Assembly: GCA_020217265.1 (NCBI GenBank)
Contig: JAIWOS010000181.1
Coordinates: 1 to 13,482 of the forward strand
Direction: 5' to 3'
DNA from: Thiobacillus sp.
GTDB taxonomy: Bacteria; Pseudomonadota; Gammaproteobacteria; Burkholderiales; Thiobacillaceae
Length of the DNA: 13,482 nt
This document shows positions 4,364-11,905 of this stretch, one piece after another (position 1 is the first letter of the stretch; each line of letters begins with the position of its first letter). The translations under genes were made by a program, and so were the position numbers. Below the pieces are notes generated by a model. The model had not been told where the DNA came from and made no database searches. It saw only the letters and a list, made by a program, of their open reading frames with translations.

Positions 4364-4921
4364 TTACCAGCCCTGTTGCAGCATCTTCTCCAGCCAGAAC
4401 AGCCCGATGACCGTCTTGGTCTCGCAGATGCGGCCGTCACGCACCCACTGCATCGCCTCGTCGAACGGCAAGCGGAAGACTTCGAGAAATTCGTCGTGGT
4501 CGCGGCCGTGGTCGCCGGCTTTCAGCTCGCGCGCCAGATAGAACGCCAGCCGCTCGTTGGAATACCCGATGCACGGATAAATCGTGGTGAGCTCGCGCCA
4601 GACGCCCGCGGTGTAGCCGGTTTCCTCTTCCAGCTCGCGTTGCGCGCACGTCAGGTCGGCCTCGCCGGGATCGATCTTGCCGGCCGGGAATTCGATGAAG
4701 TCGCGATGCAAGGGGTAGCGGTGCTGGCGCTCCAGCAGCACGTCGCCGTTGTCGAACACGGGGATGACGACCACGGCGCCGGGGTGGATGAGGTATTCGC
4801 GCGTGGATTCGCCGCCGTTGGGCAGGCGCACGCGGTCGCGCCTGACGTGCATGAGCCGGCCCTGGAAGACGGTTTCGGTATCGAGCTGCGTTTCGGTGAG
4901 GTCGGATGCGTCGGTTTTCAT
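4364..4921 (-). CDS. Nudix hydrolase, probable ADP-ribose pyrophosphatase
   Basis: A protein of 185 residues with a complete Nudix box (GX5EX7REUXEEXGU) at residues 81-103, beginning GKIDPGE and ending RELEEETGY, which binds the catalytic divalent metal. The preceding FIEFPAGKID and the following YPCIGYSNE (115-123, with a proline downstream of the box) are typical of the NudF/ADP-ribose pyrophosphatase subgroup. That subgroup splits ADP-ribose to AMP and ribose-5-phosphate; the substrate is inferred from family resemblance only. ATG at 4921 was chosen because the reading frame further upstream (to 4990) runs through a terminator hairpin and has no family resemblance. No clear ribosome site is visible. 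Its transcript start is unknown: it may have its own promoter, or come from read-through of the terminator at 4959-4988. It converges on metH. Confidence 0.88.
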   Translation of the reverse strand: MKTDASDLTETQLDTETVFQGRLMHVRRDRVRLPNGGESTREYLIHPGAVVVIPVFDNGDVLLERQHRYPLHRDFIEFPAGKIDPGEADLTCAQRELEEETGYTAGVWRELTTIYPCIGYSNERLAFYLARELKAGDHGRDHDEFLEVFRLPFDEAMQWVRDGRICETKTVIGLFWLEKMLQQGW

Positions 4922-4958
4922 GCCCGCGATGATAGCCGCGCGCTGCGGAAAACCGGGC

Positions 4959-4988
4959 AAAAAAAAGCCGGGTTCTTGCGAACCCGGC
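4959..4988 (-). terminator. strong Rho-independent terminator (minus strand)
   Basis: A perfect 9-bp stem (4967-4975 with 4980-4988, four-base loop) is followed on the minus strand by eight T residues (4966-4959). There is no T-tract on the plus strand, so it acts on leftward transcripts. It lies 37 bp upstream of the Nudix start, so it does not end any annotated protein gene. It is best explained as the 3' end of a short transcript initiating near 5050. Confidence 0.85.
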
Positions 4989-5050
4989 ATAAAAGAGAGG
5001 ACGAGCCCCTCATTGCGGAGAACTTCCTGCTTGCGAAACAGTGAGCAAGC
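4959..5050 (-). ncRNA. predicted small RNA, about 90 nt, with three stem-loops
   Basis: No plausible protein is encoded here, yet the stretch has the parts of an sRNA gene on the minus strand: an operator (5101-5086), a -10-like TAGCAT (5062-5057), a purine start candidate at 5050, and a perfect terminator ending at 4959. The transcript would fold into a 5' hairpin (5050-5045 with 5034-5029, GCTTGC/GCAAGC), a second hairpin (5011-5006 with 5000-4995, one G-U pair, loop 5005-5001), and the terminator hairpin. A single-stranded linker of about 17 nt between the first two hairpins contains TTCTCC, which could pair with a Shine-Dalgarno sequence. Targets and Hfq binding are unknown. The alternative is that this is a terminating leader controlling the Nudix gene. 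All of this is inference from sequence. Confidence 0.5.
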
Positions 5051-5056
5051 AAAAGC

Positions 5057-5101
5057 ATGCTACGAAGGGATCGCGGATTTGGATATACGACTTTAGTCGT
5101 A
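5057..5101 (-). promoter_or_regulatory. operator copy 2 plus -10 box for the predicted sRNA
   Basis: The perfect inverted repeat TACGACTTTAGTCGTA (5086-5101; 7-bp arms, 2-bp centre) sits inside a 19-bp sequence (5085-5103) identical to one at 5603-5621. On the minus strand it is followed 23 bp later by TAGCAT (5062-5057). The predicted start near 5050 puts the centre of the palindrome at about -43, the usual place for an activator touching RNA polymerase. No good -35 is present, which is in line with activator dependence. Confidence 0.5.
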
Positions 5102-5103
5102 GA

Positions 5104-5213
5104 TGGCACCCAAGCTATTGATTAGTAAAAACATTTAGTTTTTGAAACTCGCAAATATCCCGCTCGGAAGTGCCGGCTTCCCTTCAACTGCCGCCCGATT
5201 CGCAGGCGGCCCG
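5104..5213. other. AT-richer spacer downstream of the 105-aa gene
   Basis: About 110 bp, noticeably more AT-rich than the surroundings. It holds a weak A/T hairpin (5127-5132 with 5138-5143) and, closer to the stop codon, a short GC stem on the minus strand without a T-tract. Neither is a convincing terminator, so where the 105-aa gene transcript ends is unclear. No gene is seen here. Confidence 0.5.
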
Positions 5214-5531
5214 CTATTCGGAACTGCTGCAACCGCCCGATTCGACGACGGTTCCGCCCCCCGGCGCGGCCTTCACCGTGCCGACGAACATCATGTTCTC
5301 GATGCGCTCGAAATGGGCGTCGAGTGCCGACTCGACCTCGCGCTCCGACAGCCCGTCGTAGATATAGACGTTGCCGCTGCGTTCCTTGTCGAGTTCGGCC
5401 GGCGTGGGCTGCATCAGCCGGCGCACCTGCCATTGATGAAGATTGTCGTTCGGGGTCTGCGCCATGCCGGGGCCGATCGCCAGCAGGCCGCTGAGGAGCG
5501 CTTCGCCTGTGTGCAAAATCGTGTGTGCCAT
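5214..5531 (-). CDS. conserved-looking hypothetical protein, 105 aa
   Basis: I do not assign a function. The start is well supported: GGAGGT (5543-5538) lies 6 nt before ATG 5531. The N-terminus has a short apolar stretch (about residues 11-24, ALLSGLLAIGPGMA) that could be a weak signal peptide ending near AQ|TPND. The rest is soluble and charged, with LHQWQVRRLMQPTPAELDKE (31-50), GNVYIYDGLSEREVESALD (53-71) and FERIENMMFVGTVKA (74-88), and a glycine-rich tail with one cysteine (GGCSSSE). The middle segment reads like a genuine conserved protein core, and I have an impression of having met similar proteins in betaproteobacteria, but I cannot name the family. It is preceded by operator copy 1 and lies downstream of the response regulator gene in the same direction, separated by 108 bp. 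An internal start at Met23 is possible if the apolar stretch is not a signal. Confidence 0.75.
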   Translation of the reverse strand: MAHTILHTGEALLSGLLAIGPGMAQTPNDNLHQWQVRRLMQPTPAELDKERSGNVYIYDGLSEREVESALDAHFERIENMMFVGTVKAAPGGGTVVESGGCSSSE

Positions 5532-5575
5532 GGTCCACCTCCAGTCCGGAAGCCGCTGCGAGCTGCGGGGTCTCC

Positions 5576-5619
5576 GTTATAGAAGCCCCCCTGCGAACCG
5601 CCATACGACTTTAGTCGTA
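5576..5619 (-). promoter_or_regulatory. operator copy 1 plus -10 box for the 105-aa gene
   Basis: The perfect inverted repeat TACGACTTTAGTCGTA lies at 5604-5619 within the 19-bp sequence shared with 5085-5103. On the minus strand it is followed after 22 bp by TATAAC (5581-5576). The expected start near 5569 gives a leader of about 38 nt carrying the ribosome site, and places the palindrome centre near -42. A recognisable -35 is missing, so the palindrome probably recruits polymerase. Palindromes of this kind with 7-bp arms suit a dimeric helix-turn-helix regulator (for example LuxR/FixJ type). They do not look like the direct repeats bound by LytTR proteins such as the neighbouring regulator. 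Confidence 0.55.
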
Positions 5620-5639
5620 GAGGCCAGACAAGCCCTTGT

Positions 5640-6404
5640 TTACAAGAACTTAATTTTTTCTCTCAGACAGGAATACTGGCGCCGGCTGACGGCAAGACGC
5701 TCGTCCAGTCCATCCAGACGCAGGAAATGCCCCTCGTCGTCGCCCGGCAGTTTGCCGATTTCGCGGATGCGCGCGCCGGCCACCAGGCAATTGCGATGAA
5801 TGCGCACGAAGGCGTCGCCGAATTCGCTTTCGAGCCGGGTGAGCGATTCCTCCAGCAGGAACTCGCGCGCCGCGGTGCGCACGGTGACATATTTCAGCTC
5901 GGCTTTCAGGTACAGGATGTCGGCGACGGGAATGAGGACGATGCGCCCTTTTTCGTTGACCGACAGATGGGTGCGCGCCTTGGGGTAAGCCGCGCGCAGG
6001 TGTTCGAGCGCGCCGGCATTGAGCCGGTGGGCGCGCGACAGCGCTCGCACCAGCCGGTCGGCGCGCACCGGTTTCAACAGGTAATCGACGGCATTGAGGT
6101 CGAAGGCCTGACACGCGTAGGCATCGTAGGCGGTGCTGAAGATGATGGCCGGCGGCGCGGCCAGCCGGTTGAGGTGCGCCGCACACTCGAGGCCGTCCAT
6201 GCCCGGCATGCGGATATCGAGCAGGACGGCGTCGACCGGCTGGCGCTGCACCGCCTCCAGCGCCGCCAGGCCGGTTTCCGCCTCGCCCACGACGTTGACC
6301 GGCAGTTCGGCCGCGCAGTCGGCCAGCACATCGCGCAGGCGGCGGCGCGCGGGCGCCTCGTCATCGACGATGAGGACGGACAGGGGCAGGCTGGGTGCGT
6401 TCAC
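5640..6404 (-). CDS. algR: LytTR-family response regulator (AlgR type)
   Basis: A protein of 254 residues. The receiver domain (about 8-125) has the acidic pair Asp14/Asp15, phosphoacceptor Asp63 (LLDIRMPGMDG), Thr91 (FSTAYDAYA) and Lys111 (LLKPV). The C-terminal LytTR DNA-binding domain (about 145-250) shows IADILYLKAELKYV-like strand patterns, then RIHRNCLV and the closing SRRQYSCLREK. It is expected to be phosphorylated by the kinase encoded just upstream and to activate or repress genes in the cytoplasm; its targets are not known from sequence. The start is GTG at 6404, inside the kinase gene (44-bp overlap), which implies translational coupling. No later methionine fits, because the next one falls inside the receiver domain. 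In many betaproteobacteria hemC follows algR; here it does not. Confidence 0.92.
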   Translation of the reverse strand: MNAPSLPLSVLIVDDEAPARRRLRDVLADCAAELPVNVVGEAETGLAALEAVQRQPVDAVLLDIRMPGMDGLECAAHLNRLAAPPAIIFSTAYDAYACQAFDLNAVDYLLKPVRADRLVRALSRAHRLNAGALEHLRAAYPKARTHLSVNEKGRIVLIPVADILYLKAELKYVTVRTAAREFLLEESLTRLESEFGDAFVRIHRNCLVAGARIREIGKLPGDDEGHFLRLDGLDERLAVSRRQYSCLREKIKFL

Positions 6405-11527: not shown

Positions 11528-11905
11528 ATGGCAACAGTGAAGAAACCCGCCGCCAAACCGGCGGCCAAGAAGGCAGCCCCTGCCAAGAAGCCTGCGGTGA
11601 AGAAAGCCGCTCCGGCCAAGAAGGCAGCGCCCGCCAAGAAGCCCGCAGTGAAGAAAGCCGCTCCGGCCAAGAAGGCAGCGCCCGCCAAAAAGCCCGCGGT
11701 GAAGAAAGCCGCACCGGCCAAGAAGGCAGCGCCCGCCAAGAAGCCCGCGGTGAAGAAAGCCGCACCGGCCAAGAAGGCAGCGCCCGCCAAAAAGCCCGCG
11801 GTGAAGAAAGCTGCGCCTGCCGTCAAGCCAGCAGCCGCGCCTACGCCTGCGCCCGCTGCAGCACCCGCACCGGCGGTACCGGTCATCAAGCCGTTCGGGC
11901 TTTAA
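11528..11905 (+). CDS. histone H1-like Ala/Lys/Pro-rich DNA-binding protein
   Basis: A protein of 125 residues made almost entirely of Ala, Lys and Pro. A short head ([19 protein letters not shown]) precedes four complete copies and one partial copy of the 17-residue unit [17 protein letters not shown] (residues 20-98). An uncharged Pro/Ala-rich tail ends in PVIKPFGL. Such proteins resemble the C-terminal tail of eukaryotic H1 and the bacterial Hc1/BpH1/AlgP-tail group, which bind DNA non-specifically and condense the nucleoid; binding here is inferred from composition. AAGGAG lies 6 nt before the ATG, making the start secure. The gene has its own promoter, long leader and terminator. Its length is likely to vary between strains through repeat slippage. 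Confidence 0.88.
11585..11821 (+). repeat. 51-bp in-frame tandem repeat, 4 full copies plus 33 bp
   Basis: Copies start at 11585, 11636, 11687 and 11738, with a partial copy at 11789-11821. Differences are few and mostly silent. Copies 1 and 2 share GCTCCG; copies 3 and 4 share GCACCG; copy 3 and the partial copy share AAAAAG at their start. This points to recent block duplication. The unit is a multiple of three, so copy changes keep the reading frame. Confidence 0.95.

Follow-up and report, generated by a model that had tools for sequence, protein, structure and literature searches.

The response regulator NarL binds sites of the 7-2-7 type. Another regulator of its family, GacA, activates the small RNAs RsmY and RsmZ through an upstream palindrome. 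The CrbS/CrbR (MxtR/ErdR) system, with its ACTU motif, occurs in Pseudomonas and other Gammaproteobacteria and controls acetate genes; to activate, CrbR requires an imperfect palindrome spanning -52 to -36 ahead of an RpoD promoter, and a predicted ACTU match reads TACGACTAAAGTCTAAA, according to the part of the source cited here (PMC5715377). The DosR box, in the cited part of another source, reads GGGACTWWAGTCCC (PMC2275270).

The Thiobacillus locus described here was compared with these systems. CrbR, NarL-type like the candidate regulator proposed below, is its closest named relative; the ACTU match is like the palindrome found here, and the two sites would have the same position (the start here being predicted). 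Since the CrbR palindrome lies at -52 to -36, a site of this type and in about this position was already known; what is new is the candidate target set, the predicted small RNA (sRNA) and an apparently repeated, concerted switch. CrbR targets acetate genes, whereas the candidate targets here are the sRNA, FimT-type pilins and comEA; the regulator also scores far below the ErdR cut-off. With the DosR box and NarL sites the palindrome shares an ACTWWAGT core and the dimer-type inverted repeat of NarL-family regulators, while outer bases, organism and targets differ. The GacA-RsmY/RsmZ system resembles the proposed one in its NarL-family regulator, sRNA and upstream palindrome, but the GGA of the sRNA here is not conserved.

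The window, i.e., the whole analysed stretch of 13,482 nucleotides (Thiobacillus sp., contig JAIWOS010000181.1), carries two identical 19-bp sequences (5085-5103 and 5603-5621) with a perfect 7-2-7 inverted repeat, just where the first-pass annotation had placed them. They were the only matches in the window with up to three mismatches, and none appeared in 200 shuffles. The core, TACGACT-N2-AGTCGTA, is exact in both copies and occurs exactly twice in the window. Allowing it up to three mismatches gave nothing beyond the two copies, and at least two such matches also arose in 4 of 200 shuffles. The -10-like boxes claimed earlier, TATAAC (5581-5576) and TAGCAT (5062-5057), are present on the minus strand at 22 and 23 bp, respectively, from the 16-bp palindrome. 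Both promoters had been said to lack a good -35, and no sigma-70 hexamer pair or -35 was found in 4800-6000. The two promoters are alike over 40 bp at 83% (repeat family D8) and look as they would after a duplication. A plasmid search with window positions 4900-5700 gave no match. The features are as follows:

4364 to 4921, minus strand: gene for a NUDIX hydrolase, located past the sRNA terminator and also next to the sRNA in another genus (genome G285) (domain search)
4959 to 5050, minus strand: predicted small RNA of about 92 nt, with stem 1, single-stranded linker AGGAAGUUCUCCGCAA, stem 2 and terminator (fold, conservation, paired structure)
4967 to 4988, minus strand: intrinsic terminator stem of the sRNA, with a T-run 3' (terminator prediction)
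5057 to 5062, minus strand: TAGCAT, the sRNA promoter's -10 box, with transcription predicted to start near 5050 (consensus TAGGAT, offset 39-44)
5086 to 5101, minus strand: operator copy 1 within the sRNA promoter, minus-strand sequence TACGACTAAAGTCGTA (exact-pattern search; register kept in 50 sRNA promoters)
5111 to 5123, minus strand: IHF-like box AATCAATAGCTTG, 10-22 bp 5' of operator copy 1 (exact register in sRNA promoters)
5214 to 5531, minus strand: 105-aa protein behind operator copy 2, with 48 homologues, none having a Pfam domain (homologue search)
5576 to 5581, minus strand: TATAAC, the -10 box of promoter 2, with transcription predicted to start near 5569 (read from the sequence)
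5604 to 5619, minus strand: operator copy 2, identical in sequence to copy 1 (exact-pattern search)
5629 to 5641, minus strand: IHF-like box AAACAAGGGCTTG 5' of operator copy 2, 9/9 match, overlapping the end of the LytTR gene (register scan)
5640 to 6404, minus strand: neighbouring LytTR response regulator (domain search)

The palindrome was searched for in the source genome of the window (G000, a 2.14 Mb draft, 84.6% complete). Three exact 7-2-7 cores were found, compared with none for a control pattern. With up to three mismatches four more places appeared, against 69 for the control, and hence only exact copies are informative in the draft. A comEA-like gene (TIGR00426, HHH_3) begins 71 bases after the end of the third exact copy. 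Directly upstream of the operator formed by this copy lies a 455-aa ORF (L008:2355-3722, contig C41), which we take to be an IS256-type transposase. One of the 3-mismatch palindromes (L009:2996-3011; C31:5995-6010) lies about 90 bp 5' of an ORF that is presumably an RpoH-type sigma factor.

Operator copy 1 appears to drive no protein gene. Its presumed target is a predicted three-stem RNA with its own terminator, not the NUDIX gene. The region between the operator and the NUDIX gene folds into hairpins with a z-score of -3.93. By DNA search the sRNA was present in 53 of 56 Thiobacillus genomes, including all 27 good ones. Across 48 aligned orthologues, 99.0% of the cells in the three stems are paired, more than in any of 500 shuffles; four stem pairs are changed on both sides, a number reached by 7 of the 500 shuffles, and this covariation is modest because conservation is high. 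When the most conserved stretch of the sRNA was compared with named genomes, 58 stretches were obtained. Those bearing the palindrome came from Thiobacillus, or from MAGs under other names that match loci of the genus; the rest included 19 from other bacteria or archaea, which are free of it, and one truncated Thiobacillus-type locus. The earlier proposal of one activator for both units gained support from sequence, with the correction that the unit behind copy 1 is a predicted sRNA, which had escaped the first reading.

The linker AGTTCTCCG does not vary and is single-stranded in the consensus; the sRNA probably acts by base pairing through its invariant unpaired AGUUCUCCG. No Rfam family reached the gathering threshold (best below it, mmgR, 22.1 of 41 bits). 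A role as a CsrA/RsmA sponge was considered and rejected; the sRNA has a single GGA ahead of stem 2 and this GGA is not conserved, which makes such a sponge unlikely. The linker complement GCGGAGAACTT was then searched in 20 genomes, and the matches read comprised 29 loci, sRNA genes among them, and 40 regions. Most non-sRNA matches lie inside long open frames. No target was conserved among the matches read in the 20 genomes, and therefore none is claimed. In one genome only (G002, L410, C9:97767), 12 bases complementary to the linker stop one base short of the start codon of an ORF, presumably norB; in G024 a match (L447) lies 5' of a small ORF.

Promoters were numbered from the palindrome, its first T being 0. 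In 50 sRNA promoters four elements follow one another: A/T tract (-40 to -32), IHF-like box (-22 to -10), palindrome (0 to 15) and TAGGAT (39 to 44). The implied start at 51 puts the palindrome centre near -43.5 and its predicted span at -51 to -36. Scored against the IHF consensus WATCAANNNNTTR, the box matched at 8 or 9 of 9 positions in exact register in 48 of the 50, and at none of 90 control registers. At the 63 non-sRNA sites it was in exact register in 8 and anywhere in -30 to -13 in 19 (control 0.06 per register), counts that are lower bounds, since the scoring took a number of comEA sites in the wrong orientation. FimT promoters mostly have no such box. The first-pass annotation had called for a scan of the genome and its relatives, to see whether matches cluster at promoters with a -10 about 33 bp from the centre. 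Such clustering was found: in 41 of 55 non-sRNA sites a -10-like hexamer beginning at offset 39 has A as its second and T as its sixth base (6 sites for the next best offset), the sites are mostly in promoter context, and they number 0-7 per genus genome (1-7 in 55 of the 56; reversed-pattern control 0 or 1 each), unlike a dispersed repeat. The idea that an AAA centre always points downstream was discarded; seven comEA sites and the G285 sRNA site read TTT.

The genes behind the operators were examined for 115 distinct sites (52 sRNA, 63 other), made up of the sites of 21 genomes plus the sRNA and regulator loci of others, and thus a part of the sites in the 56 genomes. L093 (centre TTAA) was counted once, and L029, an sRNA locus clipped at its end, was counted as sRNA. 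comEA lies behind 17 of the 115 sites, 10 in one orientation and 7 in the opposite one. GspH/FimT-type pilins lie behind 13, and all 13 first pilins have a C-terminal GRxR; the single FimT-type representative scanned contained GspH PF12019. A C-terminal GRxR motif is described for DNA-binding FimT in the cited part of PMC8897410. An AmpD-like amidase lies behind 6 sites, a lipoprotein-like protein behind 4, and mixed or single targets behind 23 further non-sRNA sites. The comEA and FimT-type targets suggest DNA uptake, presumably competence, as a common theme. Some homologues of the 105-aa protein are named Thiobacillus or Thiobacillaceae. In the window its gene and promoter (5214-5640) lie between LytTR and sRNA; in G034 and other relatives a single promoter is present there. 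Two single-genome sites lie 5' of a LuxR/GerE-type regulator gene (L143, G016 C1:786513) and of a Bro-N domain gene (L140, G062 C4:442215).

The sRNA operator in the genus is usually TACAACTAAAGTTGTA. The form seen in the window, G/G, was found in 3 of 50 sRNA promoters, those of G000, G013 and G034. All 11 sites found in these genomes (3, 4 and 4, respectively) are G/G, whereas the 67 sites of 18 other genomes comprise 48 A/A, 15 mixed, 2 of other types and 2 G/G, of which G011 and G024 have one apiece; the 11/11 and 2/67 counts were made by hand, and G008 entered with 4 of its 5 sites. Both half-sites are changed together in G/G operators. In a single-gene tree of the LytTR protein (45 genomes), G000, G013 and G034 fall in three places, none of 200 bootstrap trees unites them, and strongly supported branches force at least two operator changes.

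LytTR and GerE proteins were compared for residues that follow this variation in the operator. GerE proteins of seven genomes gave 61 matches, of which one below the cut-off was left out and 60 were clustered. One cluster had a recognition helix differing in G013 and G034. Its helix reads TVK[VI]H[IMV][AS]AIF in 48 of 50 orthologues, the only exceptions being G013 (HTTAIF) and G034 (HNTEIF), which are also the only G/G genomes at the sRNA among the 50. Residues unique to these two occur in 3 of 212 columns: the adjacent helix positions 187 and 188 and one in the C-terminal tail. Of the 1225 genome pairs, two have such a helix column, and G013/G034 alone has two. Position 188 aligns with a NarL lysine, presumably the base-contacting K192. 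Two genomes with an A-type helix, G011 and G024, nevertheless have one G/G site each.

The G024 orthologue contains PF00072 and PF00196 over cut-off and matches the NarL structure at 6.6e-29. The best NCBIfam model of the regulator is ErdR (NF041830; 147.6 bits, below the cut-off of 390), and that of its partner kinase, a G013 protein, is NahK/ErcS (NF041832; 369.9 bits, below 400), so that both are relatives of ErdR and NahK/ErcS, not certified members. The window genome's own orthologue was not found in its 84.6% complete draft, and the link between regulator and operator therefore runs through relatives. At the cut-off used the regulator was not found in six genus genomes, five of which carry the sRNA; one sRNA genome without it, G070, is 93% complete with 1% contamination. 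Among the 120 best database matches listed, P0051 and P0056 carry HVTAIF, as predicted for the window's lineage. They are 88% and 82% identical to the regulator of G062, the window genome's nearest relative on the LytTR tree, and neither could be placed in the window genome.

The RNA model was run against 399 genomes of the order, and 30 places were listed: 4 strong, all in Thiobacillus, and 26 weak, of which 17 were inspected. The only inspected weak match with linker and palindrome, at 33.7 bits, was that in G285, a genome from another genus of the family (linker GTTCTCCGC, palindrome TATAACTTTAGTTATA). Here the regulator orthologue (57% identical) is encoded on the opposite strand, its start 132 bp past the palindrome, and the kinase gene comes next; the far side of the RNA is occupied by a NUDIX gene, just as it is in the window. 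G285 has two palindrome sites, one imperfect, and no IHF-like box was found in its sRNA promoter. The regulator of G285 has an A-type helix, HVAAIF, which agrees with the A at position 4 of the operator. The palindrome was found in none of seven other-genus genomes of the family besides G285, six of which have a regulator homologue.

The best candidate for the binder is the ErdR/CrbR-like response regulator of the NarL family, not LytTR. A LuxR/FixJ-type dimer had been judged more plausible earlier, and this judgement is supported by a recognition helix that follows the operator change and a gene that adjoins the site in another genus. That another regulator binds, either an ErdR-like paralogue in this genome at contig C140 or a member of an unscreened family, we consider improbable. 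The paralogue has the helix TVKAHVTAIF, with T at the key position, in a draft that has no orthologue; however, such paralogues were listed in 13 of 56 genomes, compared with 55 of 56 for the operator, and it is the orthologue that covaries with the operator and adjoins the site in G285. The paralogue (L218, C140:16000-17270) is about 42-50% identical to the orthologues, clipped by the contig end, and converges on a hybrid kinase. Still less likely is binding by the neighbouring LytTR (AlgR/BtsR-like) regulator, which the first reading had also doubted. Its gene lies within 1.5 kb of the sRNA on the same contig in 52 of 53 sRNA genomes (on different contigs in G064), and GTT, a feature of LytTR sites, is part of the half-site, but LytTR sites are usually direct repeats, and G285 has the NarL-type gene at this place instead. 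LytTR also failed the residue test: among 45 proteins no DNA-contact residue follows the operator change, the one column that does lying in a linker and being common to three other genomes. A dispersed repeat or chance palindrome with no regulatory role, which the exact identity of the copies might suggest, is scarcely credible for 0-7 copies per genome with a fixed 23-bp distance to the -10 and half-sites changed together.

The palindromes are thus most probably operators of an ErdR/CrbR-like regulator of the NarL/FixJ family with a NahK/ErcS-type kinase, activating an sRNA and DNA-uptake genes. The hybrid sensor kinase would phosphorylate its paired regulator, and the activated dimer would bind the two TACRACT half-sites centred near -43.5 and recruit sigma-70 polymerase to promoters having no -35. 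A bend by IHF 10-22 bp 5' of the operator probably helps at the sRNA and many comEA promoters. The targets switched on in Thiobacillus would be the approximately 92-nt sRNA, comEA, FimT-type pilins and accessory genes; in the window, the sRNA and the 105-aa protein. We regard as evenly balanced the further proposal that, in this DNA-uptake two-component regulon with its own sRNA, replacement of A188 by T (with I187 to T or N) shifted specificity in at least two, probably three, lineages, each carrying its operators from A/A to G/G, and that the mixed A/G sites (15/67) are stepping stones.

If true, the sulfur-oxidising genus Thiobacillus would have a first candidate for the switch controlling its DNA uptake and for the sensor, along with a genus-wide sRNA, absent from Rfam, switched on together with DNA-uptake genes. 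By title and the start of the abstract, none of the literature matches listed dealt with Thiobacillus small RNAs or competence control. The genus would also offer a natural series, with one regulator, at most seven operators per genome and repeated switches, for testing how regulator-operator specificity changes. It may be noted that the window also encodes, at 11528-11905, a lysine/alanine-rich protein made of near-perfect 51-base repeats (family D1), which we take to be histone H1-like in composition.
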